Virus record (IMG/VR): IMGVR_UViG_3300046048_000003
Span: 1-23,541 of that record
DNA length: 23,541 bases
Source of the DNA: a virus
Direction: 5' to 3' (one strand)
Under the pieces are notes generated by a model, which did not search any database, was not told the origin of the DNA, and saw only the letters and a list, made by a program, of their open reading frames with translations. The translations under genes and the position numbers were made by a program. Shown piece after piece: positions 308-18,840 of this stretch (positions within the stretch are counted from its first letter, which is position 1; the number at the start of each line of letters is the position of its first letter).

Positions 308-411
308 AATCTCTGGAGGTGTCACGGGGCCAAGGTGTGCAGCCGCAGCGGTGATACATACTCCATCATTCTCTTTCTTTTGCGCGTTGCCTAACTGCCC
401 TTACCTTACGC

Positions 412-448
412 TTTGTGCGTTGACACAGGGCGTTATGGACGTGCTAAT
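412..448 (+). promoter_or_regulatory. Shared promoter-like element, copy A, ahead of small terminase
   Basis: TTTGTGCGTTGA at 412-423 is one of four near-identical copies in the window. In this copy the end of the element merges into TTGACA (420-425), a perfect bacterial -35 hexamer. After 17 bases comes GCTAAT (443-448), which matches a -10 hexamer at four of six positions. The ATG of the small terminase gene follows 41 bases later. A host sigma-70-type promoter fits here, but the conserved part extends upstream of the -35, so a phage-specific factor or polymerase is also possible. Confidence 0.55.
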
Positions 449-451
449 CAT

Positions 452-474
452 GGGGGGAGAGAGGGAGAGGGGGG
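452..474 (+). other. Purine-only, G-rich tract before small terminase
   Basis: Twenty-three bases contain only G and A, with runs of six, three and six G separated by AGAGA and AGA. Four GGG tracts can be drawn, so a G-quadruplex on the plus strand is formally possible. The AGGAG ribosome site at 480-484 and the small terminase start follow closely. A second G-rich tract lies just after the same gene (892-904). Confidence 0.5.
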
Positions 475-489
475 CAGTTAGGAGACAAC

Positions 490-867
490 ATGAATGATGT
501 AGCAATAAAGAAACTAACGGATAAGCAACAGTCGTTAGTAGATATAATGGTAGCCGAGGGACTGAAACCTGCACAAGCAGCAGAGAAGGCTGGGTACGCT
601 GCTGGCAAAGCAGGATACGTCAGTGCTTACAGAGCATTGAAGGTGCCACATGTGCAGGCTTACATGATGCAGAGGATGCATGATGAATTTGGGTTAAGTG
701 CTATAGCAGCCCTGAACACCACTCGCAGACTGTCACAAGGTGCCAAGAGTGAGTACGTACAGCTCCAAGCAAGCCAAGATTTACTGGACAGGGCGGGATA
801 CAAGCCGATAGATCGCAGTCAAGTACAACTGGCTGGTGATATAAAGGTTACCATTGATCTAGGATAA
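490..867 (+). CDS. terS: Terminase small subunit (probable)
   Basis: A 125-residue protein that probably recognises phage DNA and loads it onto the large terminase for packaging. The opening LTDKQQSLVDIMVAEGLKPAQAAEKAGY (residues 9-36) has the pattern of terminase small subunits: LT.KQ..FV, a gap, then a helix-turn-helix in which AA..AGY is typical. VPHVQAYMMQRM (about residues 53-64) matches the following 'P.V..YI' helix. The C-terminal part (ASQDLLDRAGYKPIDR) is also common in this family in podoviruses. The start is supported by AGGAG at 480-484. Unlike many phages, it is separated from the large subunit by about 1.5 kb of small genes. Assignment is by sequence pattern, not by a search. 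Confidence 0.8.
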   Translation: MNDVAIKKLTDKQQSLVDIMVAEGLKPAQAAEKAGYAAGKAGYVSAYRALKVPHVQAYMMQRMHDEFGLSAIAALNTTRRLSQGAKSEYVQLQASQDLLDRAGYKPIDRSQVQLAGDIKVTIDLG

Positions 868-889
868 ATTCATTCCCAGTCAGGTCATA

Positions 890-943
890 TAGGGGAGGGG
901 GGGGTCAAAAACTGTGTTGGTTAGTTACTGTAATAGTCCCCTA
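890..943 (+). other. G-run with flanking inverted repeat after small terminase
   Basis: TAGGGGA at 890-896 is the exact inverse complement of TCCCCTA at 937-943. The first arm runs into eight consecutive G (897-904). The intervening 40 bases are loop or second structure, and ACAAACATTTTTCTCT follows the second arm. This could be a weak terminator with an oversized loop or part of a packaging site. The repeat is visible; its function is not. Confidence 0.35.
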
Positions 944-991
944 CAAACATTTTTCTCTAAAAAGGTCCGAAGAAAAAGTGAGGTGCTGAAG

Positions 992-1120
992 ATGAGCAGA
1001 TATGATACGAAGCCTGAGAAGCAGACACGAAGTGATACGTCTGTAGCCAAGAAGCAATTGAGGAGTGTCGGGTATGGCAAAGAGTCCAGCGTGGCAGAGG
1101 AAAGCAGGGAAGAACCCTAG
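992..1120 (+). CDS. Small basic protein, unknown function
   Basis: An open frame of 42 residues starting MSRYDTKPEKQTRSDTSVAK. The ATG at 992 is preceded by GAGG at 980-983, a fair ribosome site. The frame overlaps the next gene (ATG 1074) by 47 bases in a different frame, which is more than the overlaps elsewhere in this string. The N-terminal half is Lys/Arg/Thr-rich, like its neighbours. I do not recognise a family. It may be a real small gene coupled to the next, or just an upstream frame that carries ribosomes to it. Confidence 0.45.
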   Translation: MSRYDTKPEKQTRSDTSVAKKQLRSVGYGKESSVAEESREEP

Positions 1121-1373
1121 TGGTGGTTTGAATGCTAAGGGCCGTGCTTCTTACAAGGGCGGTACGTTAAAGGCTCCTGTTAAGAGCGGAGACAATCCTC
1201 GTCGTGCTTCCTTCTTGGCTCGTATGGCTGGTGTTAAGGGTCCGATGAAGGATGAGAAGGGTCGCCCTACCCGAAAGGCTTTGGCATTGAAGGCATGGGG
1301 TGCTTCTTCCCCAGCAGATGCTAGAGCTAAGGCCCGCGCTATTAGTAAACGAAACGCATCGAAGAAGGATTGA
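1074..1373 (+). CDS. Small basic phage protein, NPSGGLNAKGR type
   Basis: A 99-residue, very Lys/Arg-rich protein. The ATG at 1074 is chosen because GAGGAG (1060-1065) lies eight bases before it and because MAKSPAWQRKAGKNPSGGLN is the usual opening of this family. Recognisable blocks are NPSGGLNAKGRASY (about residues 15-28), PRRASFLARMAGVKGPMKDE (about 43-62) and GRPTRKALALKAWG (about 65-78). I recall this as a domain of unknown function (DUF6321-like) common in podoviruses that infect aquatic bacteria, usually near terminase. No catalytic motif is visible. The high charge suggests nucleic acid or capsid-interior binding, which is inference. Confidence 0.75.
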   Translation: MAKSPAWQRKAGKNPSGGLNAKGRASYKGGTLKAPVKSGDNPRRASFLARMAGVKGPMKDEKGRPTRKALALKAWGASSPADARAKARAISKRNASKKD

Positions 1374-1377
1374 TGAT

Positions 1378-1572
1378 ATGTGTGGTGGTGGCAAAAGCGC
1401 TGACGCTTACTACGAAGAAATAAAGCCTGACCCAGTAGACCTTCCGTCTCTCAGTGTTGGTGACAAGGCTACTCGGAACACTCGCTATGGAAATGTAAAG
1501 ACTATGCGGACTGGTAAGCAGCGCCGCAGTTTGTTCTCTGCGTTTGGCTTAAACAATGGAGATAATATGTAA
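1378..1572 (+). CDS. Small MCGGG-start protein, unknown function
   Basis: A 64-residue protein. The ATG at 1378 is chosen over an earlier frame because AAGGA (1365-1369) sits eight bases before it. It begins MCGGGKSADAYYEE and ends with KQRRSLFSAFGLNNG near its C-terminus. The same plan (MCG at the start, RRSL plus aromatic plus Ser near the end) is seen in the protein at 3948-4175, so the two may be distant paralogues. Its stop overlaps the next ATG by one base (TAATG). Function unknown; I would guess a minor virion or head-completion role from its company. Confidence 0.65.
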   Translation: MCGGGKSADAYYEEIKPDPVDLPSLSVGDKATRNTRYGNVKTMRTGKQRRSLFSAFGLNNGDNM

Positions 1573-1787
1573 TGGCTTGGAAGTGTAAGCATACTGAAAC
1601 GATTTGGGACGGCGGGACGCATGAGCTTGTGGGCCGCACGTTTACGGGCAAGACCCGCACCGCTGAATCAGTTCCACTGGTTTGGGTAGAGGACGCACCT
1701 AAAGAAAAGATCGCGTCCCCTTCTAAGCCCAAGCAACCTCGAAAGAAGCAAGCGCCAAAGGCTAAGGGCGCAAGTGCGTGGGATTAA
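1572..1787 (+). CDS. Small protein with basic C-terminal tail, unknown function
   Basis: A 71-residue protein that starts at the ATG overlapping the previous stop. The N-terminal half has a folded look (WKCKHTETIWDGGTHELVGR, then LVWVEDAP). The C-terminal third is a Lys/Pro-rich tail (KPKQPRKKQAPKAKG). Cys5 and His7 are present but do not make a recognisable metal site. GGAG at 1557-1560 could serve as ribosome site. I do not recognise a family. Confidence 0.6.
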   Translation: MAWKCKHTETIWDGGTHELVGRTFTGKTRTAESVPLVWVEDAPKEKIASPSKPKQPRKKQAPKAKGASAWD

Positions 1788-1790
1788 GAT

Positions 1791-2030
1791 ATGGCAAAGT
1801 CACTAATAGATATGACCGATTCTGAGCTAAACACAGAGTATGATCTTTTGTTTGAGCGGCTAAAGAACATGCCTAACGATCTTAGGCTGTTCCCAAGGAT
1901 TAGAGATCGAGCGCGCAGCTTGCTTAACTTACGTCCTGAAGGTCGAGTCACTAGCCGTAAGCGACTTACTCTTGAGCGCAGGTTGGATCAAATGGAAAAC
2001 GAAATGCTAACTGAAGCAAGGCAGGATTAA
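1791..2030 (+). CDS. Small helical charged protein, unknown function
   Basis: A 79-residue protein, mostly charged and predicted helical by eye: MTDSELNTEYDLLFERLKNM, a short turn, then IRDRARSLLNLRPEGR and a final helix LERRLDQMENEMLTEAR. The pattern suggests a helical bundle or coiled coil. It follows the previous stop by three bases and its own TAA overlaps the next ATG by one base, so translation is probably coupled. No family recognised. Confidence 0.6.
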   Translation: MAKSLIDMTDSELNTEYDLLFERLKNMPNDLRLFPRIRDRARSLLNLRPEGRVTSRKRLTLERRLDQMENEMLTEARQD

Positions 2031-2224
2031 TGAGTTTTATTAATACGCTTTCTCAAGTTGAGCGGGATACTCTTCGGCGGGTTGTGCGTCTCGTACACAT
2101 GAAGCACTTTCCTAAGCACGTTGCTACTGACTATGAAGCAGACAAGATCATTGAGAACATTGGTCCTGAGGCTGCTGGCAACATGATTAAATCGGGAATG
2201 GATCGGGGGATACACAATGCGTAA
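2030..2224 (+). CDS. Small protein, unknown function
   Basis: A 64-residue protein, MSFINTLSQVERDTLRRVVR and onward, with a second half containing YEADKIIENIGPEAAGNMIK. It is joined by a TAATG overlap to the gene before and overlaps the gene after by eight bases. The pattern D..I...GPEA...MI resembles small helper proteins that sit before the large terminase in other podoviruses, but I cannot name a family. Confidence 0.6.
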   Translation: MSFINTLSQVERDTLRRVVRLVHMKHFPKHVATDYEADKIIENIGPEAAGNMIKSGMDRGIHNA

Positions 2225-2366
2225 AGGTCTTTATGCGAACATCAATGCTCGTAAGAAGAAAGGGACCAGTCGTTCAAAGTCCAAGTCTACGATCAGTGAC
2301 AAGGCTTATTCGAACATGAAGGCTGGCTTTCCTAAGAAGAAAACGCTGCTGAAACGCGATGGTTGA
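2217..2366 (+). CDS. Very small basic protein, GLYANI type
   Basis: A 49-residue protein, MRKGLYANINARKKKGTSRS and onward, with almost one residue in three Lys or Arg. The ATG at 2217 overlaps the previous gene by eight bases, and the TGA at 2364-2366 overlaps the large terminase start by eight bases. The opening GLYANI followed by a basic stretch is a pattern I know from short proteins next to terminase genes in many aquatic phages. There they continue with a GSGEKMR-like block; here that part is replaced by SRSKSKSTISDKAYSNM. Function unknown. It is easily missed because of its size. Confidence 0.65.
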   Translation: MRKGLYANINARKKKGTSRSKSKSTISDKAYSNMKAGFPKKKTLLKRDG

Positions 2367-3885
2367 CTTCAAGTACATACCTGACGGTAAGGTACTAAAG
2401 GATTTCATGAAGGACGAAACATTCTTTCGTGGCATCCGTGGCCCTGTAGGTAGCGGCAAGTCTGTTGCCTCTTGCGTTGAAGTGTTCCGCAGGGCGCTTG
2501 AGCAAGAGAAGGGACCGCAAGGTATTCGCAAGAGCCGCTGGGCTATCATTCGAAATACCAACCCGCAGCTTCGAACAACTACAATCAAGACTTGGCTTGA
2601 CTGGTTTCCAGAAGCTGACTGGGGAAAGTTTACTTGGTCAGTGCCTTACACCCATCACATCAAGAAGGGTGACATCGACCTCGAGGTTATCTTCTTAGCT
2701 CTTGATAGACCCGAAGACGTTAAGAAGTTGCTGTCATTGGAACTGACGGGCATCTGGATTAACGAAGCGCGTGAGATTCCAAAGAGTATTATTGATGCGT
2801 GTACCATGCGCGTAGGTCGATACCCTTCTATGCGTGACGGTGGTCCGTCATGGACGGGAGTTATTGCTGACACTAACGCACCCGAAGAAGATCACTGGTG
2901 GCCTATTATGTCGGGTGAGGTGCCAATTCCTGACCATATCCCGCGTGAGCAAGCCAAGATGCTGGTGAAACCTACGAACTGGAAGTTCTTTACGCAGCCG
3001 TCTGGCATGAGTGAGACAAGGGATGAGGACGGCGAGATCGACGGGTACACACCCAATCTTAACGCCGAGAACCAAAAGAACATGATGAAGTCTTACTACC
3101 CAAACCTTATCCAAGGTAAGACGAAATCATGGATTGATGTCTATGTGATGAACCGATTTGGTCACATCCAAGACGGAAAGCCTGTATATCCTATGTTTGC
3201 ACCAGAAGTTCACATTGCAAAAGAGGAACTGCCCATCGCCGCTGACATGCCAGTGTACGTTGGCGTTGACTTTGGCCTTACCCCAGCCGCCGCAATCGGG
3301 CAGAAGGTTCGAGGCCGATGGTTGATCCAATCTGAGATCGTAGCCGTAGACATGGGTGTGGTTAGATTTGCAGAAGTTCTGAGGACTGAGCTATCAACAC
3401 GCTTCTTTGCATGCCCAGAGGTTCACATATACGGCGACCCCGCTGGTGATTTTCGTGCGCAGACCGATGAAACCACGCCTTTTCAAATACTTAGAGGTGC
3501 TGGCCTCAAGGCTTACCCTACCCACTCCAACTCTGTTGACCTACGATTAGAATCTGTTTCCTCTCAGCTTATGAAGATGAGCGAAGGCAAGCCTGCGTTC
3601 CTGCTTGATCGTAGGTGCAGCATGTTAATCAAGGGCTTCGAGGGCGGATACGGTTACAAGCGAATGGAGGTCAGCGGAGAGCGGTACGCTGATAAGCCTG
3701 ACAAGAACATGTTCTCTCACATCCACGATGCCTTGCAGTATTTAATGCTTGGTGCTGGCGAGGGCAGAGCATTGCTAAACAATCAAAAGCCAATGCGTCC
3801 TACCATTGCCAAGCGTGACTTCGATGTCTTCAGCAAAAAGCCAGCAAGGGGCCAGCGCAGACAGGGCTTGTGGTCAAGGATGTAA
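2359..3885 (+). CDS. terL: Terminase large subunit
   Basis: A 508-residue packaging motor that combines an ATPase with a nuclease. The Walker A loop is GPVGSGKS (residues 28-35). The Walker B region is LTGIWINEAREI (about 129-140), with Glu136 as the likely catalytic acid. Asn135 replaces the more usual Asp, a variant I have seen in related podovirus terminases. The RNase H-like nuclease shows VGVDFG (Asp304), YGDPAG (Asp360) and HIHDALQYLM (Asp457), the expected three acidic positions. The length is normal for the family. The start overlaps the preceding small gene by eight bases. A shared promoter-like element begins at the stop codon, so the downstream head genes may be transcribed separately. 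Confidence 0.93.
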   Translation: MVDFKYIPDGKVLKDFMKDETFFRGIRGPVGSGKSVASCVEVFRRALEQEKGPQGIRKSRWAIIRNTNPQLRTTTIKTWLDWFPEADWGKFTWSVPYTHHIKKGDIDLEVIFLALDRPEDVKKLLSLELTGIWINEAREIPKSIIDACTMRVGRYPSMRDGGPSWTGVIADTNAPEEDHWWPIMSGEVPIPDHIPREQAKMLVKPTNWKFFTQPSGMSETRDEDGEIDGYTPNLNAENQKNMMKSYYPNLIQGKTKSWIDVYVMNRFGHIQDGKPVYPMFAPEVHIAKEELPIAADMPVYVGVDFGLTPAAAIGQKVRGRWLIQSEIVAVDMGVVRFAEVLRTELSTRFFACPEVHIYGDPAGDFRAQTDETTPFQILRGAGLKAYPTHSNSVDLRLESVSSQLMKMSEGKPAFLLDRRCSMLIKGFEGGYGYKRMEVSGERYADKPDKNMFSHIHDALQYLMLGAGEGRALLNNQKPMRPTIAKRDFDVFSKKPARGQRRQGLWSRM

Positions 3886-3923
3886 TTGTGCGTTGATATT
3901 ATCTTTATCGTGTGTTTTGCAAT
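3885..3923 (+). promoter_or_regulatory. Shared promoter-like element, copy B, ahead of head genes
   Basis: ATTGTGCGTTGAT at 3885-3897 starts at the last base of the large terminase stop codon and lies in a 62-base gap. TTGATA (3893-3898) is a near-consensus -35. TGCAAT (3918-3923) could be a weak -10, at 19 bases, which is long. A TATAGAAT sequence at 3929-3936 is too far for that -35. The gap also shares GTGTG...GCAATT with copy D. It probably promotes the block from 3948 onward. Confidence 0.55.
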
Positions 3924-3947
3924 TGCAGTATAGAATAGGAGATTACC

Positions 3948-4175
3948 ATGTGTGGACCTAGCAGCGCTGAGAAAAAAGCAGCGGCAGAGCAACGTGCGGA
4001 AGCTGAGCTTGCTAAGCAAGAGCAGATTAAAGATCGCGCTGAAAGCAAGCGAGAAGATATTACCGATGCTCTAAGTGCGCGCTCGGAACGTAAAGGTACG
4101 CGGGGCGGTGGCTCAGGGCGACGTTCTCTGTATAGCGGAAGCACTGGCGCAGGATTTTTGAGTAGGTTTCGATAG
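3948..4175 (+). CDS. Small MCG-start coiled-coil protein
   Basis: A 75-residue protein beginning MCGPSSAEKKAAAEQRAEAE, followed by a long Ala/Glu/Lys/Arg helix that could form a coiled coil (about residues 7-50). Then comes a Gly/Arg-rich segment and the C-terminus GRRSLYSGSTGAGFLSRFR. AGGAG at 3937-3941 supports the start. Its stop directly abuts the portal ATG with no gap. Small proteins that start MCG or MCF and end in an RRSL block often lie next to portal genes in podoviruses, but their role is unknown to me. It shares this architecture with the protein at 1378-1572. Confidence 0.7.
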   Translation: MCGPSSAEKKAAAEQRAEAELAKQEQIKDRAESKREDITDALSARSERKGTRGGGSGRRSLYSGSTGAGFLSRFR

Positions 4176-5726
4176 ATGGAAGATGCCGCAAAGAAGTACA
4201 TCGCGAAGTACGAGAAGGCTAAAGCTTTTCGTGAAAACTGGGTGTCACTGTTTGAAGAGTGTTATGAGTATGCACTGCCACAGCGCGAGTCTTTCTACGC
4301 AGAGACTGCTGGTCAACGTCGAGATGACAAAATCTTTGACGAGACTGCTGTTGTCGGCGTCCAAGAGTTTGCGAGTCGTCTTCAGTACGGCATGGTTCCT
4401 AACTTTGCTCGATGGGCTGACTTTACTTCTGGTAGCGAAGTACCGCCAGAAGACCGTGATCGCATTGATAATGAACTAGACGCAGTAACCGAGTACGTCT
4501 TTGAGATCATTCAGAACTCTAACTTTGGGCAAGAGGTTCATGAATCGTTTATGGACTTGGCTGTTGGCACTGGGGTTATGTCAATTGAAGAGGGTGATGC
4601 TCTTAACCCTGTTGTTTTCTCTGCTATTCCTTTGCCGCAAGTTGTTCTGGATACTGGTCCTGATGATCGCATCGACCATGTGTTCCGTGAGCGCAAGAAG
4701 GTTCCGTTCGAGCATCTTAGCATCTTGTATCCCAAGTCTACCTTTGACCCCAAGGTTACAGCACTGATGTCTACCGACGACACCACTGATGTGCTTGAGA
4801 TTGTGTGCCGTGATTACAGCAAGCGCAATGAAGAAGCGTACCTTCACTATGCAATCTGCCAGCGTACAAAGACTGTGCTTCATTACAAACAGATGAGTGG
4901 GGTGGGTTCTAACCCATACGTTTGTTTCCGCTGGGCCAAGTGTGCTGGTGAAGTCTACGGGCGAGGCCCACTGGTCAATGCCCTGTCGTCTATCAAGACA
5001 ACCAACCTGACCATCGAGCTTATTCTTGAGAACGCGCAGATGGCTATCTCTGGTATCTATCAGATGGAAGATGATGGCGTTGTTAACCCTGATACAATCC
5101 AGCTTGTTCCGGGGTCTATCATTCCCAAAGCTATGGGTTCGTCGGGCTTGCAGCCAATCAATGCCGCTGGTCGCTTCGATGTAGCCCAGCTTGTGCTGGG
5201 CGATATGCGTTTGAATATCAAGAAGGCTCTATACAACGACATGCTGGGCAATCCAGATAGGACACCAGCTAGTGCAACAGAAGTTGCAGAGCGTATGGCT
5301 GACTTGTCCCGTCGAATGGGCGCCGCCTTTGGTCGCCTTCAGTCCGAGTTGGTTCAGCCAGTTCTTCAGCGCGTCGTTTATATCTTGCGCAAGCAGGGTC
5401 GCATTGAATTGCCAACAATTAACGGGCGAGAGATAAAGATTCGACCTACGTCTCCACTTGCCCAAGCCCAAGCAAACCAAGACATTTCAAGCGTTGCTCG
5501 TTTCCTTGAGATGGTTGGCGGTGTCTTTGGACCTGAGATGTTGCAGATGCTAATTGATGGCGAAGAGGTCGCAGTTCACCTTGCTAAAAAGTTTGGTGTG
5601 CCAGACCGCTTGATTCGTGATGAAGAACAGCGTAAGCAAATAGCTGCAATGGCGCAGCAAATGGCCCAGCAGCAAATGCAACAAGCGCAACAACAACAAG
5701 GACCGCCAGTTGAACAACAAGGTTAA
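4176..5726 (+). CDS. Portal protein (head-tail connector)
   Basis: A 516-residue protein that forms the ring at the capsid vertex through which DNA enters and leaves. The N-terminus (KYEKAKAFRENWVSLFEECYEYALP, residues 10-34) and the block DETAVVGVQEFASRLQYGMVPNFARW (about 52-77) are characteristic of T7-type head-tail connectors. So is YGRGPLVNALSSIKTTN (about 262-278). Further on, SATEVAERMADLSRRMGAAFGRL and ELVQPVLQRVVYILRKQG form the usual long helices. The last 35 residues are strongly Gln-rich (QQMAQQQMQQAQQQQG), a low-complexity tail. The gene starts immediately after the preceding stop and its 3' end overlaps the next gene by 17 bases. Length is close to T7 gp8. Confidence 0.93.
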   Translation: MEDAAKKYIAKYEKAKAFRENWVSLFEECYEYALPQRESFYAETAGQRRDDKIFDETAVVGVQEFASRLQYGMVPNFARWADFTSGSEVPPEDRDRIDNELDAVTEYVFEIIQNSNFGQEVHESFMDLAVGTGVMSIEEGDALNPVVFSAIPLPQVVLDTGPDDRIDHVFRERKKVPFEHLSILYPKSTFDPKVTALMSTDDTTDVLEIVCRDYSKRNEEAYLHYAICQRTKTVLHYKQMSGVGSNPYVCFRWAKCAGEVYGRGPLVNALSSIKTTNLTIELILENAQMAISGIYQMEDDGVVNPDTIQLVPGSIIPKAMGSSGLQPINAAGRFDVAQLVLGDMRLNIKKALYNDMLGNPDRTPASATEVAERMADLSRRMGAAFGRLQSELVQPVLQRVVYILRKQGRIELPTINGREIKIRPTSPLAQAQANQDISSVARFLEMVGGVFGPEMLQMLIDGEEVAVHLAKKFGVPDRLIRDEEQRKQIAAMAQQMAQQQMQQAQQQQGPPVEQQG

Positions 5727-5967
5727 TATCGGAATTGATGGTATCCAGCGAAATAGAGAGCGGGATACAGAGATTAGTCAGAATATTGCCACTGTTTTCT
5801 CTGACCCTACGGGAAGTGCAGTCCTAAAGTATTTGCGGTCTATTACCATAGAAATGGTTCATGGTCCTAATGTTGCGTCAGAAGAGCTGCGCCATCATGA
5901 GGGTCAGCGTTATATCGTTGGCCTAATTGAACAGCGCATTGCACACGCACATAGGAGCAAGAAATGA
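5710..5967 (+). CDS. Bbp19-like small phage protein
   Basis: An 85-residue protein. No ATG occurs near the beginning; the likely start is TTG at 5710, inside the end of the portal gene, with AAGGA at 5697-5701 eight bases before it. The pattern NIATVFSDPTGSAVLKYL, then ELRHHEGQRYIVGLIEQRI, matches the small Bbp19-type proteins that lie between portal and scaffold in many podoviruses (F..pdG..vL..L and eGrR.lv..I). Function is not established; its position suggests a head assembly role. The last four bases overlap the next start (ATGA). Confidence 0.7.
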   Translation: MNNKVNIGIDGIQRNRERDTEISQNIATVFSDPTGSAVLKYLRSITIEMVHGPNVASEELRHHEGQRYIVGLIEQRIAHAHRSKK

Positions 5968-6704
5968 ACGATTCACTTATTGAGACAAGTCAGTCTGACC
6001 TCCCACAGACTGATACTACGGAAGCCACTACGGTTGATCCCACTCCCTCCCAAGATGGTCGACCTGAGTGGCTTCCAGAGAAATACAGTTCGGCAGAAGA
6101 GTTGGCAAAAGCTTACAAAAATCTTGAGTCTAAGATCGGGCAGAAGGAAGAAGACCTTCGAAAGCAGATCACTGATGAGATTAGTGAGCAAGCATACGCT
6201 GATCGTCCCGCAACCTCTGGTGACTACAAGCTTCCTGAGTCTATTGACGAGGCAGAGGCTGTAGATAACGAGCTTATGAAGTGGTGGTCCGAGCATTCAT
6301 TCGAGAATGGATACGGTCAGGAAGACTTCGAGAAGGGCATCGAGATGTATATGAGTGCCGTTCAAGGTCAGCAACCAGACCTAACTGCTGAAGCAGCACG
6401 TCTTGGCGACAACGCTTCATTGCGTGTTGATGCTGCAAGTGCATTCGCCTCTAAGTTCTTTCCAGCAGAAGTAACTCCTGCAATTGAGCGAATGTGTGAA
6501 ACTGCTGAAGGCATCATGGCAATCGAGATTATCATGGAGAATATGAAAGACGGATCATTCTCTGGGGATGCTTCAATCTCAGGTCAAATTAATGAAGCGT
6601 CATTGCAAGAAATGATGCGCGATCCTCGGTATCACCACGTACAGCAACGCGACCCCAACTTTGTAAAGCAAGTAGAAGATGGGTTCAAAAAGCTTTATGG
6701 CTAA
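5964..6704 (+). CDS. Capsid assembly scaffolding protein
   Basis: A 246-residue acidic protein that should shape the procapsid and then leave, as T7 gp9 does. The N-terminal 30 residues are Asp/Thr/Ser-rich and look disordered. RPEWLPEKYSSAEELAKAYKNLESKIG (about residues 33-59) is the conserved opening of this family, followed by a coiled-coil stretch (QKEEDLRKQITDEISEQ). The C-terminus, LQEMMRDPRYHHVQQRDPNFVKQVEDGFKKLYG, matches the usual 'mmnDPRY...rDp.fv..V..gf..LY' end that contacts the coat protein. The gene lies between the portal and capsid genes, as expected, and overlaps its neighbours by a few bases on both sides. Confidence 0.85.
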   Translation: MNDSLIETSQSDLPQTDTTEATTVDPTPSQDGRPEWLPEKYSSAEELAKAYKNLESKIGQKEEDLRKQITDEISEQAYADRPATSGDYKLPESIDEAEAVDNELMKWWSEHSFENGYGQEDFEKGIEMYMSAVQGQQPDLTAEAARLGDNASLRVDAASAFASKFFPAEVTPAIERMCETAEGIMAIEIIMENMKDGSFSGDASISGQINEASLQEMMRDPRYHHVQQRDPNFVKQVEDGFKKLYG

Positions 6705-7194
6705 GCCGATCATTAAGTTTAACAACTTAGAACTTCACAAGTATAAGGGGAAGCACGTCTTTCCCTTATACCAGAACATGAGCGATCAAAACATTAGAGA
6801 GTTTGAAGTCCTATACGAAGAGGACATTCTAGAAACTTTGCTAGATTGTTTGGACGATGACCTCTGCCATGTCATTGAGTCTGATGGAAAGCCCATTGCT
6901 ATATGCGGTGTTTGCAATCAGGTACTCTGGACTATGTTTACTAAGGACATTCGAAAGCACTGGCGTTCTTTTGTTAAAGCATCGCCCAAGCTGATTGATT
7001 TCTACCACCACTTTTACGATCAATTGTATTGCAGTGTGTGGGATGAAAACGTCTTTATTCAGAATTGGTTAGTTCATCTTGGCTTTGAGCCTTATGAAAT
7101 TGAAGAAGGCAAACATCGCATAGTTAATTTTGTGCGTTGTATTCCACCTTGTGATAGTATTGATTCCAAAGAATCACGGCCCGTGATGCACTAA
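6697..7194 (+). CDS. GNAT-like protein of the T7 gp13 type
   Basis: A 165-residue protein starting at ATG 6697, eight bases inside the scaffold gene. The central part, DDDLCHVIESDGKPIAICGVC followed by VLWTMFTKDIRKHWRSFVKASPKLIDFY and WLVHLGFEPYE, follows the order seen in T7 gp13-like proteins. These have an acetyltransferase-like fold (DUF2833 family): a 'dG.pvai.Gv' strand, an 'lW.l.t..i..h...F.r.s' block and a final 'WL..lGF'. I see no clear acetyl-CoA pyrophosphate loop (Q/RxxGxG/A), so enzymatic activity is doubtful. In T7 this gene lies after the tail tube genes; here it lies between scaffold and capsid. Cysteine content is high (six or more). Element copy C lies inside its 3' end. Confidence 0.65.
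   Translation: MAKPIIKFNNLELHKYKGKHVFPLYQNMSDQNIREFEVLYEEDILETLLDCLDDDLCHVIESDGKPIAICGVCNQVLWTMFTKDIRKHWRSFVKASPKLIDFYHHFYDQLYCSVWDENVFIQNWLVHLGFEPYEIEEGKHRIVNFVRCIPPCDSIDSKESRPVMH
7129..7165 (+). promoter_or_regulatory. Shared promoter-like element, copy C, ahead of capsid gene
   Basis: TTTGTGCGTTGT at 7129-7140 lies within the last codons of the gp13-like gene, about 135 bases before the capsid start. Compared with the other copies, the final A is T. A -35-like TTGTAT (7137-7142) is present, but the best -10 candidates are poorly spaced (TAGTAT at 12, TTGATT at 17 bases). It may drive abundant capsid transcription. The coding constraint makes its conservation here more notable. Confidence 0.5.
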
Positions 7195-7219
7195 GAGGCC
7201 CGAAAGGATACCCTTGTCT

Positions 7220-7256
7220 GAAGTGAAGTAACGGACACCCGTCTACTTGAAACTTC
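7220..7256 (+). promoter_or_regulatory. Large stem-loop in the capsid gene leader
   Basis: GAAGT (7220-7224) pairs with ACTTC (7252-7256), AAGTA (7226-7230) with TACTT (7244-7248), and ACGG (7231-7234) with CCGT (7239-7242). The loop is ACAC, with small internal interruptions. The fourteen paired positions form one long hairpin that ends five bases before the AGGAAA ribosome site (7261-7266) of the major capsid gene. It could be a processing or stability element like the RNase III sites before T7 genes, or it could expose the ribosome site. Structure is inferred from complementarity. Confidence 0.6.
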
Positions 7257-7272
7257 ATATAGGAAAAATCCA

Positions 7273-8082
7273 ATGGCTAACACAATCGACCAAGCTTTTA
7301 TTAAACAGTTCGAAACTGAAGTTCACCTCGCGTATCAGCGCATGGGTTCTAAGTTGCGCAACACAGTCCGCTCTTCTAATGTTTCGGGTTCAGTCGCTCG
7401 TTTCCAGAAGATTGGCAAAGGTGCTGCTGTAACTAAGGTCCGTCAAGCTGACGTTGCTCCAATGGACTTGGCACACACCAACGTAGAGGCCACAATGGTT
7501 GACTACTTTGCTGCTGAGTACATCGACAAGCTCGACGAGTTGAAGATCAACATCAATGAGCGTCAGGCCGTAGCTACATCTGCTGCTGCTGCTCTGGGTC
7601 GCCAAACTGATGCGCTTATCATCGCCGCAATGGACGCTGGTGCAAACGCAACTCAGATTGGTGCGGTTGGTTCCGCAGTAAGTAAAGCTGACCTGCTGAC
7701 ACTTTTTGAAACTCTGGGAACTGCTGACGTTCCAGAAGACGGCCAGCGTTATATCGCTATGTCTCCTGCTGGTTTTGCTGACTTGTTTAACATCAACGAG
7801 TTTGCTTCTTCTGACTACGTTGGTCCTCAGAACCTGCCGTTTGCTGGCGGTATGACAATGAAAGAATTCTTGGGCTTCAAGATTTTCTCAACGTCTGCTG
7901 TAGCTGGCGGTAAGAACTTCGCTTACCATCAAACCGCTATGGGTATTGGCATCAACGCCGATGTCCAGACTGAGGTGAACTATGTTCCTCAGAAGGTTGC
8001 GCACTTGACCACATCTATGATGTCGATGGGCGCAATTGCGATTGACTCTGACGGTATCTACGAAGTCCTTGACAACAACTAA
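7273..8082 (+). CDS. Major capsid protein
   Basis: A 269-residue protein, MANTIDQAFIKQFETEVHLA and onward, that forms the icosahedral shell. The opening 'QAFI.QFE.EVH.AYQR.GSKLRNTVR' and the block RFQKIGKGAAVTKVRQADVAPMDLAHTNVEATMVDYFAAEYIDKLDELKIN match major capsid proteins of T7-like and related marine podoviruses, with the HK97-type fold expected. Positions downstream (ALIIAAMDAGAN, PEDGQRYIAMSPAGFADLF, LPFAGGMTMKEFLGFKIF) fit the same family. It is shorter than T7 gp10. The ribosome site AGGAAA (7261-7266) is strong, a hairpin precedes it and a terminator follows the stop at once. This is the arrangement expected for the most highly expressed late gene. Confidence 0.92.
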   Translation: MANTIDQAFIKQFETEVHLAYQRMGSKLRNTVRSSNVSGSVARFQKIGKGAAVTKVRQADVAPMDLAHTNVEATMVDYFAAEYIDKLDELKININERQAVATSAAAALGRQTDALIIAAMDAGANATQIGAVGSAVSKADLLTLFETLGTADVPEDGQRYIAMSPAGFADLFNINEFASSDYVGPQNLPFAGGMTMKEFLGFKIFSTSAVAGGKNFAYHQTAMGIGINADVQTEVNYVPQKVAHLTTSMMSMGAIAIDSDGIYEVLDNN

Positions 8083-8089
8083 AGGGGGT

Positions 8090-8107: not shown

Positions 8108-8115
8108 AAACTTTC

Positions 8116-11488: not shown

Positions 11489-11491
11489 GCC

Positions 11492-14400
11492 ATGCCTGTT
11501 ATTAGAGAGAAAAAGAATTTCAGCATTGGTCCTGTTGGTGTTACCCGCGCCTCAGAGGCTGGACGAATAACTGGTCAAGCGATTACTCAGTCCGCTAACC
11601 AGATGAGTGAAATATTCTTTGAGAGAGCAGCGAAGCAAGCTGAAGAGTTTGGCCTTAAAGAAGGCGCCTCTGTTGATCGAGAGCAAGTCATTGCAATCAA
11701 CCCCCAGACTGGTGAGCCAGAGGCTTACGAGCCGCCTCAGGGCTTGGGTAGTATTGGTGCGGATGCGTACCAGCGTGTAGTGATGACTCGCTTTCAGCGA
11801 AGCATTGAGGACGAGATTAGAAACAAAGCTTCAGAGCTTTCTCTTCGGTTTGAAGAAAACCCTAACGGCGTTGCTTTGTACACAGAAGCAATGTCTGATT
11901 ACATTTCTTCTATGACGGATGTCGCTCAAGATGAGTTCAGAGGATACATTGGTGACGTTGGCACTACCTACTTAAACGCAACCCGCACAAGCATGGCTGC
12001 TGCACAGGTTCGCCGTGAGCGCGCTGCCGCACGACGCGCTCAGACGGCTGCTATTAATGAGGGCCTTGAAAACTTGCATAACGCTTTTGCGCAAAATGGA
12101 ACGGCTGCGTTATCAAGTAATGAAGGTGAGCCAACTCTAGGGGATGTAATTAATGAAGGCGTTGCTGTCGCTATCAATGATGGCGCCGAGGCTCAACTTT
12201 TTAATCCTGAAGAAGCGGCAGGTTATACTGCTGATCAAAGTGTCGCTGCGATTACTGGCCTTGTTGCTTTCCATGCAAGGCAGGAAGGCGCTGATCCTGA
12301 GCAACTCGCCCTTATGAGAGCGGCAATTGGAATGGGAAGTCCTGCTGCTATTCCAGCAGAGTTCACTGGAGTTGCTGATCTTTATCGTAACATAGCCACT
12401 AATCGCGAAGCATTAGGCAAGATAGATACTTTTTCTAACAGAATTTTAACGGATTCGATTGGCTACAACACAATCTTGCAGTCGCAAGAAAGCGAAAGAA
12501 TTGCAACAGAAACAGCGCTTCTTATTGGCGATATGGGTCAAACACTTCCAGCTGAAGTTCAAGCTGCCGACGATTTTGCCTTTGAAACGGATAGCTCTTC
12601 CGCTGTGGCTAACCGAGCATTAATAAACTTTCGCGTGCAAAACGGAGTAATTCAAGGGCACACTGAGAACGGAGATGAACAACTTCGACAATTTGCGGTA
12701 GCAAGGCAAACTGCTCTTATTCAAGGGACTGCTAGAGGCTTATATGCTAGGGCCTTGGATGGTTTAACTACTGAGGAAACGCTTGAACTTCAAGAAGCAA
12801 TTGACTCACGCCGCTTTGCTAATGCTCCAACGCTTGCTTCGCGTTCAGTAATTAGGGCGCTAGACAATATACAGGCGGAGACAGGCATACCTGTTCTTGC
12901 AAATTTTGAAGCTGAAATTGATTCTCACAGAAGCGATTCTGCAAAAGCTGTTGAAATGCGTTTAGAAAGGGATGCTATCTCCAACGCTGGAGAGATTGAT
13001 TTTAATGCAATCAGATTTTCTGAAGACCCAGAGGCTGCATTTGAAGAAGTAGTAAGTAAAATTAATGGGATTGAAAACCTACCTATCGACAGGGCCAATG
13101 CCTTGCGGAGTGGCGCTTCCTATAACACGGCTAGAGGTCTTGTTAATAGTTTTTTCTCAGACCCTTCTCTTACAGAGAGTCAACTTGACCAAGCATCGTC
13201 TGTGATTCGCGGAGGCGTAGTACCAGAAGGTGTTTTCTCAGATCAACAAATTAGTTTGCTCCAAACAATTAATGAGTACAGCGAGGCTTCTGGCGACCCT
13301 ACTGGGATTAATTCAGATTTCGGGGCTTTTGTTGAAGACAGAAAAGGTTTGATTGCATCACGCGCTGCGGAAAATGAAATATTCCAATTAGAAAGTCAGA
13401 TTGTCAACGGTGGTGGCAATGGAAATCTTGCTGAACATCGTCAGATCGCAGATCAATTGGTATTAGAAGGTACTGGTATTCCGTCTATTCCACCTAGAGC
13501 TTATAGCAGTCCCCAGTTTTTGAATAGTGAAGAAGGTCAGTTGATTCTAAATCGCGCGGCTCAAATGAATGTTCTTCCTGAGTCTCTTTATACAGCCTTT
13601 ACCCAGTTTGGAAACGGTCAGTTCAATGGGGAAGATATAGGCGCATTTATGGATGTTATCAGAAACTTTAGCACTGTTAATAATCGTGGTCAGGTATTAG
13701 CCAGTCCAGCATTTAGAGCTTTGCCTTCAGATGTTCAGGTTGTTTTGACTTATTTCTCTGATGTTGCTCAGACTTTAGGTACTGAAAATCAAAACGATCT
13801 TATGCAAGCATATGTTCAGTATCGGGACTTTGAAGATAACGAGCGTACTAGAAATGCCTTAACTACAAAATTAGGCATGCCGTTAGAAGATTATGTTTAT
13901 ACTATTGGTGAAGGCCGATGGATTTCAAGTGGAGTGGGCGAAGCTCCTCTTTCCGTGGTTAACAATTTAACAGCAGAAGCTTTGCGCCTAAATGCCATTG
14001 GTTTAAATGAAGAAAAAATTAATGCCGCATTGGTGCAACAGCTAGATAGAACTTATGCTGATAGCGGTGGCGTTGTTATTAACGAGATGGGCGGCACTAG
14101 AAGTTTGCATGCTCTTGAAGTTACAGAAAATATCGAAGGATATGAAACTCTTTTCAAAGAACTTGCTATCGCTGAAGTGGCGCGAAGCAATCCATCTCTT
14201 ACAAACATAAAGCTTGGCAACACATTCGGAGATATGACAAATCCTTCCGCTCCGGGCGTTTTTGATACGAATGACATTTACTTAATGGCCCTGCCTCAAT
14301 CTGCTGGTAGCGATGTTAGTTACACGGTCCATTTAAGAACTGAAGGTGGGTTTAACGAAGAGCTTACTAGGACTTATAGTGAGTCTGATCCGAGGGAGCC

Positions 14401-14773
14401 TGACGCAATAACATACAGAGTTCCAATAGTTGTTTCAAACAGAGACCCTCTTTTTCTTCAGCAACGGCAAAGGGCTATTATGTCCGAAGAGAGAGAGAAT
14501 ATAGCCGCTGGTGTGGAAGCAAGGGCAAGATTCGAAGGTCGTCGCGGGCCAATTGGAGGTTTTACACCTGCACTTGAAAGAGCTTTTGGAATAGAAACTG
14601 ATCAGCAGATAATTGACAGAATCCAAACCGAAGGTATCCCAAGTTTCGGGAATCCAGCCGAAGCTGAAATAGAACAAACAGAAGTAGCACCGCCCAGTCG
14701 AAGAGCAGTAGCAACAGTAGGCGATACTGCCTTTGAGCGGGCACTTATGAAATTGGGCCGAATCCTCGACTAA
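11492..14773 (+). CDS. Internal virion protein C (T7 gp15-like)
   Basis: A 1093-residue protein, close to the size class of gp15-type ejection proteins but longer than T7 gp15. It begins MPVIREKKNFSIGPVGVTRA and has the 'IFFERAAKQAEEFGLKEGASV' block (about residues 41-61) and 'QRVVMTRFQRSIEDEIRNKASELSLRFEENPNG' (about 93-125). I recognise these as the conserved N-terminal part of this family in marine podoviruses. The rest is long, acidic, helical repeats without enzyme motifs that I can see; no transglycosylase signature was found. AAGGGG stands before the ATG. It is likely a structural part of the ejectosome channel. Confidence 0.75.
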   Translation: MPVIREKKNFSIGPVGVTRASEAGRITGQAITQSANQMSEIFFERAAKQAEEFGLKEGASVDREQVIAINPQTGEPEAYEPPQGLGSIGADAYQRVVMTRFQRSIEDEIRNKASELSLRFEENPNGVALYTEAMSDYISSMTDVAQDEFRGYIGDVGTTYLNATRTSMAAAQVRRERAAARRAQTAAINEGLENLHNAFAQNGTAALSSNEGEPTLGDVINEGVAVAINDGAEAQLFNPEEAAGYTADQSVAAITGLVAFHARQEGADPEQLALMRAAIGMGSPAAIPAEFTGVADLYRNIATNREALGKIDTFSNRILTDSIGYNTILQSQESERIATETALLIGDMGQTLPAEVQAADDFAFETDSSSAVANRALINFRVQNGVIQGHTENGDEQLRQFAVARQTALIQGTARGLYARALDGLTTEETLELQEAIDSRRFANAPTLASRSVIRALDNIQAETGIPVLANFEAEIDSHRSDSAKAVEMRLERDAISNAGEIDFNAIRFSEDPEAAFEEVVSKINGIENLPIDRANALRSGASYNTARGLVNSFFSDPSLTESQLDQASSVIRGGVVPEGVFSDQQISLLQTINEYSEASGDPTGINSDFGAFVEDRKGLIASRAAENEIFQLESQIVNGGGNGNLAEHRQIADQLVLEGTGIPSIPPRAYSSPQFLNSEEGQLILNRAAQMNVLPESLYTAFTQFGNGQFNGEDIGAFMDVIRNFSTVNNRGQVLASPAFRALPSDVQVVLTYFSDVAQTLGTENQNDLMQAYVQYRDFEDNERTRNALTTKLGMPLEDYVYTIGEGRWISSGVGEAPLSVVNNLTAEALRLNAIGLNEEKINAALVQQLDRTYADSGGVVINEMGGTRSLHALEVTENIEGYETLFKELAIAEVARSNPSLTNIKLGNTFGDMTNPSAPGVFDTNDIYLMALPQSAGSDVSYTVHLRTEGGFNEELTRTYSESDPREPDAITYRVPIVVSNRDPLFLQQRQRAIMSEERENIAAGVEARARFEGRRGPIGGFTPALERAFGIETDQQIIDRIQTEGIPSFGNPAEAEIEQTEVAPPSRRAVATVGDTAFERALMKLGRILD

Positions 14774-14804
14774 TTAATTAAGCCTTAACGGAAGCAAGTA
14801 AGTT

Positions 14805-17800
14805 ATGGAAGATTTTCTAAATAGGTATTCCTCTGGAACATTTGAGCGAACCATTGTTTCGCCCCAAAGTTCTACGTTTGGTGAAGCTGTTGGGGCAACC
14901 CTTGGGCTTCGTTTGGCTCCTATATATGAAAACATAGGAATAAGCACTCGATTTAACCTTACTCCTGTTGATCCTAGTTTTGATTGGCGAGAAAATTTAG
15001 GAGATTACGCGGAATATGCTCCTGCTCTCTCCGCAGCGCGAAACCCTGCGCACATGGCTGCTCTTAAAGCTATGATTGATCGCAGTCATGAGCGTCGGTT
15101 TGTTTTAGCAAATGCTTCCTTTGGGACTAATATGGCGGCTGGTCTTTTTGATCCGATCAATGCGGTTACGCTGCCTTTAGGTGGCCCTGCTACTGGCTTT
15201 TTGCGAACTGCTGGTAAATCTGCTCTTGCTGTTGGCGCTACCGAAGCTGGTTTTTCTGCCCTAAGTCTAGCTCTTGACCCTGTAATGACCATTGAAGAAG
15301 CAACTCTTAATACAACTACTAATGCTTTATTTGGTGGTGCATTTGGCGGCTCAATTTACGCTGCCAGCGCTCCGTTTGTTAGACAAAGAGCTATTACGCT
15401 TGAGCGCACTCAAGAAGTTAACCGTGAAATGCTTGATATGTCCCGTCGCCTTCAAGATTTGGAGGGCTTAACTCCTGAGCAAATTCAAAATCGACCACCG
15501 CGCTCAGAACGTGTGCTTGGTGATGTTGAAGAACCTGAGCTTAGATCAAGAATAAATCAAATAGATGCTCAAGCTAATGCACAAAAAGAATCTGGTAATG
15601 AGCAAGCTGCAATAGACCTTCGCAACGAATCTATTCCTATAAGGAATGAGCTTGGCTTTCGCCAGATGGATGATTTAGGCGAGGATGTAACAACGCCTGA
15701 AGGTGGTTTTAATTATAAAGCCTCTTGGTTTACCGACAGCGTATTCTTTAACATGATCCCAACACCTATGAAGCGTGTTTTTCAAGGCGATTATTCTGAC
15801 GACGTTAAAGAAGTATTTGCCATAGCCTTTAATGATAACGGCATGACACATGCTATGAACTCTGCTGGCACTCCAACGCCACAAAGTGTTTATGTTCGAT
15901 CCGCTGTGCATCAAGGGCGATGGGTAAAGGCCAACGATGAGTTAATTCGCGCTTGGGCCTCAGAAACAAACGCTTCACCTGCATCTCGGCTAGACATTAA
16001 TCTTAGCAACGCCGCAAGAACGGCTACAAGGTCAGATGATACTTTTCGAAAATGGTTAACTAGGGTTAGTGAGAAGCGCATTCAAGGCGACGAAGCTAAT
16101 ATGACTGAGGGTGAATTAAAGGCTGTAAGTACTATTAATAAATACTTCGGGGACTCTGAGGTTCGGCTAGAAGATGTTGGCCTTCTGTCTTCTCGCAAAG
16201 GTCTTGAGCGACAAATTGAAATGCTCGACAAAGAAATTGTTGACCTTAACTCTAGCTTGTCTGGTGTTAGGGCAACCTCTGCTGAAGCAGATTTGGTTCA
16301 AGGTCGAGTTCGTGCCCTTGAAAAACGGCGCAGTGCGTTAAGCACAATGGGCGATCAGTTTGATGATGACATTGCGCGTGACTCATTCTTTCCTAGATTT
16401 TTCAATGCAAAAGCAATTAGACAGCGCCGCGCAGAGTTTTCTACAATTTTACATGATTGGTACAGACAAAACCCGTACAAGTATGAGGTAAACAGTAAGG
16501 GCGAAAACATTAAAATAGAGTTAAGCACTAGGCCTGAGAAAATAGAAGAACGAGTAAACCAAACAATTGACAACATTCTTGGTGAGTCAGACCCGCTTAA
16601 CCTAGATAACATTTCGTTTGGTGCGGGTCGCTCTAAGCACTTCCGTAGTCGTGAGTTAAACATTCCTAACCGTTTGGTTATGGATTTTATGATGACCGAT
16701 CCTCTTGCTGTTATGAAAACTTACGCTGCTAGGGTTGAACCTCGATATGAGTTTGCAAAGCAGTTTGGCACAGACGTTGAAGGTGTTCGCTTTCGGGTTC
16801 GTCGGTCTTTGATTCGTGATGGTAAGAATCAAAAAGAAATTAATAAAGTCATGAAAGACTTTAATCATATGTATGACCGTACCATTGGTACTGTGCTTGA
16901 AAATCCAGACAGCCTAAGTCAAAAAGTTGCAACGGTTCTGCGTGAAGCCGCATCATTTTCATACATGGGTTCTTCTGGCATTGCAGCTATTCCTGACTTT
17001 GGTCGCATTGTTATGGAATATGAAATGGACAATGTTTGGAAGGGGGTTCAAGCTCTTGTAGACAAAGAACGCCTTAACATGACCGTTGATGAAGTTCGAC
17101 TTGCTGGTGAAGCTATCGACATTCTAAAGGGCAGCGCCCACATGCGTTTAATGGAGGATATGTCTAACAACATTGACGCCAGTGACGCGCTAAGCCAGAC
17201 GCGGAATGCTTTCTATATTCTTAACGGACTTGCCCCTTTGACTACGCTTGCCAAGCAACTTGCTGGTGTAGTTGATGCTCACCAAATTATCGACTACTCA
17301 ATTAAATTGGGTAAGGGGCAGCTAGACGATCAAAGCACTGAATGGCTTGCGCGCTATGGCATCGGCAAAGAAACTGCTGCATTGATTGCTAGAGCGCCGT
17401 ATGAAAAAACTGAGAACGGTTTTTACATGGCTAACACTGAGGCTTGGACTTCAGATGAGTTTCTTAATTCTATTGTAGATAAAACATTTAAGTATCGTCA
17501 TCCAACTACTCGGTACTCTGAAATGACTGACCGTCAGTTGACAACTTACTTTAGCAAGCAATTCCCAGAAGCAAGAATTTTTACCGATCCTAATATCGTA
17601 AAGCCTTATTTTTCTAAGCTGCAAGAGAATCATGGTTATCAAAGCTTGTTGGGCTTTATGACTGATATGCGCGACATACCTGATGGTGGTTTTTCTGTGC
17701 ATATTGATAAAGATATGGTTCGTGCCCGATATGAAAGGATTAAACAAAACGGAGAAAACGCAGATCAAGTTCGGTCTGATGCTGAACAAGCATTTGCTGA

Positions 17801-18770
17801 CGGCAAAATACAAGAAGAGTATTTGTATCATGTTAAAAACGAACTTGATGCTATTGATATGTTTGAAACAGCAGATGATTACCTTGAGTACGTTATGCTG
17901 CACGAACTAATGCACAGTGTTGTTAATCGAGTTGTTGGCGAAAGCACTGCATCTGTTGAAAACAGAATTGATCGTGCTGCTATTTCTTACATGACGAACC
18001 AACGGTCTTATGGCAAAATGCTTGCGCGAGAACAGGCAGTAAAATCTTTGCGCGCAGAGCAAGAAGAGACTGTGATGCAGTTCCGCGCCGCCCTTAACAG
18101 TGGCGTTTTGAATACAATTATGTCTGGCACACCAGCCGATAAGCCAATTATTACTGATGGCGTGGTCTACATTCCAATGAGTGTTGCGTCTAAGTTTGGC
18201 ATGAAAGAACACCCAAAATATACAGGATATGCTCGGATTGAAAATGGTTTAATGGGGCTACCGTTCCAATTCTATAGCTTTGCTCTTGCTAACGTAAACA
18301 AAACTGTAGGCGCTTTGGCACAAGGCCAAATCAAGAACCGTACATTGGGCGCAGCGACGATGATGGGCTTGGCCTATATGTCTATGCAGATTCGCACCCC
18401 TGATTACATTTGGGATGAAATGAACGCGCGTGATAAATTTGCTAGAACCTTTGACATGAGTGGTATTATGGCCCTGTATTCTGACTTGTTCTACACGTCG
18501 ATGCACACATCTCTAGCTTTAGGTGGTCCTAACATTACCAATGGTTTTCTTTCTCCAAAGTTTAACCAAAAAGGTAGTGTTGTAGATGGGCTTACTGGCT
18601 TGTCAGGCGCTGGCCCGTCTTGGGGAGTTGAAATGGCAAAGGGCGTAGTGGAATTTTCCAACGGTGAGTATGGTCAGGGTGGTAGAACCATTGTGCGCAA
18701 CTTGCCGTTCTCAAACATGTGGTTTTGGAAAGATCAGGTCAATCAAATGACCTACTCTTGGACGCAATAA
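14805..18770 (+). CDS. Internal virion protein D (T7 gp16-like) with HExxH zincin motif
   Basis: A 1321-residue ejection protein, the same length class as T7 gp16. The N-terminal 200 residues are rich in Gly/Ala and hydrophobic patches (LANASFGTNMAAGLFDPINAVTLPLGG). I see no soluble lytic transglycosylase signature, which T7 gp16 has at its N-terminus. Instead HELMH (residues 1033-1037) forms an HExxH zinc-protease motif. It is followed by VVGES (Glu1046) and ENRIDRAA (Glu1052), either of which could give the third metal ligand, as in small gluzincins. After that the usual family sequence resumes: NTIMSGTPADKPIITDGVVYIP, GLPFQFYSFALANVNKTVGA and a C-terminal block with FDMSGIMALYSDLFYTSMH. 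The zincin part looks like an insertion into the canonical chain. It may trim the envelope or another virion protein during entry, which is inference. Confidence 0.82.
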   Translation: MEDFLNRYSSGTFERTIVSPQSSTFGEAVGATLGLRLAPIYENIGISTRFNLTPVDPSFDWRENLGDYAEYAPALSAARNPAHMAALKAMIDRSHERRFVLANASFGTNMAAGLFDPINAVTLPLGGPATGFLRTAGKSALAVGATEAGFSALSLALDPVMTIEEATLNTTTNALFGGAFGGSIYAASAPFVRQRAITLERTQEVNREMLDMSRRLQDLEGLTPEQIQNRPPRSERVLGDVEEPELRSRINQIDAQANAQKESGNEQAAIDLRNESIPIRNELGFRQMDDLGEDVTTPEGGFNYKASWFTDSVFFNMIPTPMKRVFQGDYSDDVKEVFAIAFNDNGMTHAMNSAGTPTPQSVYVRSAVHQGRWVKANDELIRAWASETNASPASRLDINLSNAARTATRSDDTFRKWLTRVSEKRIQGDEANMTEGELKAVSTINKYFGDSEVRLEDVGLLSSRKGLERQIEMLDKEIVDLNSSLSGVRATSAEADLVQGRVRALEKRRSALSTMGDQFDDDIARDSFFPRFFNAKAIRQRRAEFSTILHDWYRQNPYKYEVNSKGENIKIELSTRPEKIEERVNQTIDNILGESDPLNLDNISFGAGRSKHFRSRELNIPNRLVMDFMMTDPLAVMKTYAARVEPRYEFAKQFGTDVEGVRFRVRRSLIRDGKNQKEINKVMKDFNHMYDRTIGTVLENPDSLSQKVATVLREAASFSYMGSSGIAAIPDFGRIVMEYEMDNVWKGVQALVDKERLNMTVDEVRLAGEAIDILKGSAHMRLMEDMSNNIDASDALSQTRNAFYILNGLAPLTTLAKQLAGVVDAHQIIDYSIKLGKGQLDDQSTEWLARYGIGKETAALIARAPYEKTENGFYMANTEAWTSDEFLNSIVDKTFKYRHPTTRYSEMTDRQLTTYFSKQFPEARIFTDPNIVKPYFSKLQENHGYQSLLGFMTDMRDIPDGGFSVHIDKDMVRARYERIKQNGENADQVRSDAEQAFADGKIQEEYLYHVKNELDAIDMFETADDYLEYVMLHELMHSVVNRVVGESTASVENRIDRAAISYMTNQRSYGKMLAREQAVKSLRAEQEETVMQFRAALNSGVLNTIMSGTPADKPIITDGVVYIPMSVASKFGMKEHPKYTGYARIENGLMGLPFQFYSFALANVNKTVGALAQGQIKNRTLGAATMMGLAYMSMQIRTPDYIWDEMNARDKFARTFDMSGIMALYSDLFYTSMHTSLALGGPNITNGFLSPKFNQKGSVVDGLTGLSGAGPSWGVEMAKGVVEFSNGEYGQGGRTIVRNLPFSNMWFWKDQVNQMTYSWTQ

Positions 18771-18784
18771 TATGTCCTAGATTG

Positions 18785-18819
18785 TTTGTGCGTTGATCCT
18801 TTCCTCTGTGGTGTGCAAT
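18785..18819 (+). promoter_or_regulatory. Shared promoter-like element, copy D, ahead of tail fibre
   Basis: TTTGTGCGTTGAT at 18785-18797 lies in the 70-base gap between ejection protein D and the tail fibre gene. TTGATC (18793-18798) could be a weak -35 and TGCAAT (18814-18819) a weak -10, at a short spacing of 15. The gap shares GTGTG and GCAATT with copy B. AAAGGAG (18828-18834) is the fibre ribosome site. It probably gives the fibre and lysis genes their own transcript. Confidence 0.55.
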
Positions 18820-18840
18820 TTCACAACAAAGGAGTAACTG

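Follow-up and report, generated by a model that had tools for sequence, protein, structure and literature searches.

In a lineage of marine podoviruses that appears to encode no RNA polymerase of its own, late genes are, on balance, probably served by four copies of one short element, one of them set within the codons of a virion gene, together with a dedicated XRE-family activator, and one subclade seems to have dismantled the protein and its sites together. This reading, which has been built from sequence comparison, starts from a 23.5-kb fragment (23,541 nucleotides; the window hereafter), a whole IMG/VR viral contig encoding both the small and the large terminase, the portal and the capsid, tail tubes and internal virion proteins, together with a fibre that has YadA-type repeats and the beginning of an amidase. 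The original prediction had described an eleven-base element repeated at four module boundaries of this DNA. The repeat is real, with TTGTGCGTTG occurring exactly at 413..422, 3886..3895, 7130..7139 and 18786..18795, always on the plus strand and never on the minus strand, but the conserved unit is the ten bases TTGTGC[G/A]TTG (TTGTGCRTTG), the eleventh position in the sequence logo of sites being free (C 50%, A 36%, T 12%). The gene context stands as it had been described. Copy 1 precedes the small terminase subunit gene (terS, 490..867; PF03592, E 1e-6; phrog_2538), which is the first gene of the late module. Copy 2 lies directly after the stop of terL (2359-3885) and before the portal block (4176-5726), while copy 3 sits in the last codons of a gp13-like ORF (6679-7194), ahead of the major capsid protein gene (7273..8082; PF19821, E 2.6e-61). 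Copy 4 falls between the last internal virion protein ORF (14805-18770) and the tail fibre gene (18841-21015). A near copy with one mismatch, TTGCGCGTTG (380..389, plus strand), is present in this window only, 33 bp or about three helical turns upstream of copy 1.

Four copies in the window are suggestive, as had been argued from chance expectation, but they are not decisive when the window is taken alone. Under Markov models of order 1 to order 3, between 0.045 and 0.18 distinct ten-mers with at least four copies are expected in the window, and a ten-mer with four copies arises in 4-15% of the corresponding random sequences; an order-5 model raises the expectation to 1.6 distinct ten-mers. 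Two further ten-mers, both coding, also occur four times each. Given these rates and these other words, the window alone is therefore no proof of function. A generic sigma70 scan of the window revealed no excess of promoters over shuffled sequences (24 vs 24.5).

Conservation was followed in 80 window-like loci found via the portal protein, with 80 Hodr-like and 80 MEP301-like loci serving as outgroups. In the window-like loci TTGTGC[GA]TTG is present 165 times in the forward orientation, which is the direction of the late genes, and never in reverse, with forward to reverse counts of 3:6 in the Hodr-like and 1:0 in the MEP301-like loci. Fourteen near-complete relatives (contigs of 28-35 kb) carry 55 forward copies, compared with 1.75 expected, and one reverse copy; nearly all of the 55 lie at the same four late-operon boundaries (terS, portal block, capsid and fibre), and a single one is a stray inside a gene (G028:23320). 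Scanning relatives, a check proposed with the original prediction, has thus revealed conserved sites and not a scatter of copies within genes. The copy 1 site recurs in 17 non-identical relatives, 39 nt before a polypurine tract. Of 47 relatives, 41 have the copy 2 site with no more than one mismatch, and some of those without it are contigs that start too late; the copy 3 site is exact in 55 of 56. In each of the 15 contigs examined for copy 4, the word is present with at most one base different, and the fibre start follows 53-57 nt later. In a second group of relatives (G002, G006, G007, G028, G030, G033 and G034) the first copy is shifted to just after terS, and G008 and G035 are without it. 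Where second-group leaders were inspected, terS has a TTGACA promoter with an upstream palindrome of the type TGACGT(T/A)ACGTCA, seen for instance in L056, L166, G029 and G032, where this promoter replaces the motif; the palindrome looks like an operator for a different regulator.

The element is unchanged across phage genomes of 38-53% G+C, a spread which suggests that the hosts are varied. Four relatives (L435-L438) were recovered in MAG bins labelled Opitutae, Euryarchaeota, Rhodobiaceae and Pseudomonadota, and host assignment from genome bins was set aside, as it would concern only these four contigs, in unrelated MAGs, which are probably stray viral contigs. The record L084 (OQ414635) is titled Pelagibacter phage EXVC031P Hodr and has EXVC032PBaldr locus tags, a possible mix-up at deposition.

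The copy within the gp13-like gene encodes F-V-R-C near the end of the protein. Among 50 different sequences, its first three codons exhibit no synonymous change (TTT in 50/50, GTG in 49/49, CGT in 50/50), compared with 0.6-2.4 bits of synonymous variation at most other conserved residues of the same stretch. The codons CGG, CCC and CAC near the gp13-like stop are also nearly frozen, and these lie in or beside an inverted repeat, ATCACGGCCCGTGAT (7173..7187, plus strand), which coincides with the last gp13-like codons and the predicted 5' end of the capsid transcript. One stem pair of this repeat alternates between C-G and T-A among relatives, and it is perhaps a 5' stabilising hairpin.

Each of the four sites is followed by a predicted second box, consisting of a TG, one base and a hexamer. 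In the window, this box is TGCTAATCA (442..450, plus strand) for the terS promoter, TGTGTTTTGCA (3911..3921, plus strand), a TRTG extended -10 with a weak hexamer, for the portal promoter, and TGCAATTTC (18814..18822, plus strand) for the fibre promoter. At the expected place for the capsid promoter (7158..7166, plus strand) the window has TA instead of TG, whereas all 13 other large contigs have TG there, at offset 19. The distance is characteristic of each class: offset 20 in five of six terS-class sites and 19 in the sixth, offset 18 in 21 of 22 non-redundant portal sites (P 3e-24), 17-20 in 14 of 15 fibre-class sites and 17-20 in the class located after terS. Over all classes (59 sites), TG is found at 16-20 in 95% of cases, compared with 34%, 5% and 22% in control windows, and the stray copy within a gene has no TG box. 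The hexamers after TGn are weak. With the TG placed at -15/-14, the ten-base word spans about -44 to -33. It had been suggested that the word could be an extended -35, a proposal that holds in part: the word does lie over and just upstream of the -35 position, and in the terS class its 3' bases merge into TTGACA, but the other sites read TTGAT, TTGCA or TTGTA, and the invariance of the ten bases goes far beyond that of a usual sigma70 -35. Downstream of the terS promoter lies a conserved polypurine tract, GGGGGGAGAGAGGGAGAGGGGGG (452..474, plus strand), with the predicted transcript start near its first G run. Both groups of relatives share the tract almost unchanged, including cases in which the surrounding promoter differs, and it may belong to the transcript leader or to a packaging (cos/pac) site. 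Taken as a whole, these comparisons allow TTGTGCRTTG to be regarded, with high confidence, as a late-promoter element.

As to the enzyme acting at these promoters, no match to the single-subunit RNA polymerase family PF00940 was detected in the near-complete relatives, under conditions in which the T7 positive control was recovered with E 1e-109, and a beta-subunit-type RNA polymerase was not found in the relatives either. A search for a phage sigma factor returned no PF04545 above the cut-off in eight records, with one contig harbouring a sub-threshold HTH. For the related phage MEP301, neither an RNA nor a DNA polymerase has been reported (PMC8024684). The suggestion of a phage polymerase promoter has accordingly found no support, and since no phage polymerase or clear sigma factor has come to light, it is likely that the host RNA polymerase makes the late transcripts.

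Two small, adjacent HTH genes of the leftward early operon, HTH-1 and HTH-2, have been considered as sources of a protein reading the element. The window is without the early module, so that HTH-2 is known from relatives, including the sister contig G031. HTH-1 (about 94 aa, with a PTSTYYR helix) is encoded in every one of the 14 contigs that bear the motif, and none of 18 outgroup contigs has it. HTH-2, an early XRE protein of ~84 aa encoded beyond the window, is likewise present in all 14 large motif-bearing contigs, at 134-165 bits, while outgroups have no counterpart or a very distant one (33-53 bits); distant matches were all that 50,697 phage records yielded. The XRE assignment is uniform, with PF01381 and the phrog_4836 label 'CII-like regulator' in 35 of 35 sequences each, and an AlphaFold2 model (mean pLDDT 82) has HipB, C.AhdI, C.EcoT38I, ClgR and P22 c2 as its nearest structures. 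The HTH segment IGCTxSLxHKWE is nearly invariant over the 35 sequences, as would be expected of a protein that reads an invariant site. HTH genes in the distal part of the early operon (DnaA_C-like and others) were rejected as too variable between genomes for one invariant site. In G001 the early operon (about 5379-6017, minus strand of the reoriented contig) encodes a protein with both a DnaA C-terminal HTH (PF08299) and a sigma70-region-4-like HTH, and there seem to be DnaA-like fragments at the same place in G005 and G008.

A natural loss of the motif separates the two candidates. Sixteen contigs carry a decayed capsid site, TTGTTCGTTG (or TTATTCGTTG), and retain a single exact motif among them, located within the portal coding sequence of G032; in this clade, which is without HTH-2, the portal site is gone outright. 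A screen for leftward ORFs present in 14 of 14 motif-bearing contigs and in none of the four motif-lost contigs that cover the locus yielded HTH-2, plus an antisense shadow of the fibre gene, whose N-terminal domain was not found (replaced) in the motif-lost clade. The interval that runs from HTH-1 up to the following conserved gene measures 535 bp where the motif is present and 403 bp in each of the four motif-lost contigs, a common 132-bp shortening in which HTH-2 is gone and the flanking genes are kept. HTH-1 as the reader was rejected, given that it persists in all four with its PTSTYYR helix unchanged; its C-terminus is changed in this clade, an alteration for which deletion of the HTH-2 gene, which overlaps it, can account. 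A tree of the portal protein alone, with MEP301 included, had its root blurred by a long branch and was repeated with four proteins and Hodr-like outgroups. In this tree the motif-lost contigs group as a single clade with support 100, nested in the motif-bearing lineage and amid the second group, its exact position there being weakly supported. No replacement motif was recognised among the repeated 9-mers of the clade. The loss of the element together with HTH-2 represents a single event, and it constitutes strong circumstantial evidence of a correlative kind, short of proof. Another factor may have been lost or changed alongside HTH-2, such as the HTH-1 C-terminus or the fibre N-terminal domain. 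HTH-2 is, with moderate confidence, the best candidate reader of the element.

Taken together, these data are best accommodated by a model that is considered likely in its entirety. In this lineage of marine podoviruses, encoding no RNA polymerase, TTGTGCRTTG would act as the upstream recognition element of four late promoters, those of the small terminase (in one group, of the genes just after it), the portal block, the capsid and the tail fibre. Each promoter would consist of the element at about -44 to -33, a gap of 16-19 nt and an extended -10 formed by TGn and a weak hexamer, with transcription starting about 12 nt downstream of the first base of the hexamer. Expression of the early operon would supply HTH-2, whose XRE fold resembles those of lambda repressor and CII; HTH-2 would then bind the element and recruit the host RNA polymerase with its housekeeping sigma factor, thus turning on the late genes. 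Among the earlier readings, a site for a phage activator appears to fit best, taking into account the TG fixed at a class-specific distance of ~17-20 nt and the early XRE protein that co-occurs with the motif and is lost with it. Among the points that speak against this model, the element lacks the palindromic form of many XRE sites, and at the capsid promoter of the window TA stands where TG would be expected.

An unlikely alternative, albeit one of appreciable weight, retains the element and ascribes its binding to HTH-1 or to a host factor, such as an alternative host sigma or a host regulator. The distribution of HTH-1 over motif-bearing and outgroup contigs agrees with this proposal, but the retention of HTH-1 in every covered motif-lost contig does not. 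A host factor is at odds with an element that stays invariant over so wide a range of G+C content, and with its absence as a repeated element from related pelagiphages and OM43 phages. It is distinctly unlikely that HTH-2 acts on the same element as an early repressor, later removed or diluted, in the manner of the Cro/CI-type XRE proteins. XRE proteins are often repressors, the fold neighbours of HTH-2 include the repressors P22 c2, HipB and DdrO, and a protein bound at this site, which overlaps the -35 region, could obstruct polymerase. Activation by HTH-2 is nonetheless favoured on two grounds: most core promoters are poor, with a weak -10 and, except in the terS class, no good -35, which suits a need for help, and the portal site has vanished in the clade without HTH-2, where loss of a repressor would be expected to leave the core promoter in place. 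That the element works at the RNA level, for instance as a signal for antitermination or processing, is very improbable: such a role would suit its constant coding direction and the position of most sites in intergenic gaps of the late operon, but copy 1 stands where the late module begins, immediately ahead of the predicted transcript start, the TG box is conserved at a fixed spacing, and no Rfam match was found. That a phage single-subunit RNA polymerase uses the element as its promoter is extremely improbable, for although a short identical word is repeated at late boundaries on a single strand, no PF00940 match was obtained in the large relatives, and a pair of boxes spread over about 37 bp at variable spacing does not resemble a T7-type promoter. 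A chance or protein-coding repeat, which could appeal to a four-copy ten-mer being only mildly unusual under rich background models and to the coding copy, has already been refuted by the complete strand bias, the frozen synonymous sites and the fixed positions across relatives.

Activation of late or middle promoters by a phage protein aiding the host polymerase is a kind of system that is already known. As is proposed for the promoters described here, the lambda CII promoters (PRE, PI and PaQ) combine a small phage XRE-type protein with a site in the -35 region of weak host-sigma promoters, and CII resembles HTH-2 as an XRE-like HTH protein of about 80-100 aa, as the PHROG label of the latter also conveys. 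CII binds TTGC-N6-TTGC direct repeats and controls lysogeny genes, whereas the present site is TTGTGCRTTG (TTG-N4-TTG) and precedes late structural genes; the element logo has no second TTGC ten bases away. The T4 middle promoters consist of a MotA box and an extended -10, and would share with the promoters considered here a phage box in place of the -35; in both an extended -10 with TG follows. They differ in box sequence and timing, and in that MotA, which works with AsiA, is not of the XRE fold of the present candidate. The restriction-modification controllers C.AhdI, C.Esp1396I, C.BclI and C.EcoT38I are small XRE promoter proteins and count among the structures nearest to the HTH-2 model; the operators bound by C proteins are palindromic, and the genes that these proteins regulate are restriction genes. 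Methylophilales phage MEP301 and Pelagibacter phage EXVC031P Hodr are related podoviruses with similar structural genes, yet they and their close relatives do not have the motif as a repeated late element, and HTH-2 is absent from them or represented by a distant XRE domain only. In the literature searched on the motif, MEP301, Hodr and similar systems, no published description of the element was found, and the lineage, element, factor and layout are not described there.

The proposed system is amenable to testing in vitro without phage culture, and the element could be used in metagenomic contigs as a marker of the lineage and of late operon starts. Late-gene switching in small marine phages without their own RNA polymerase has been largely undescribed, and for this lineage a cis-element, a promoter layout and one small candidate factor have been defined from sequence, with a natural loss serving as the control.
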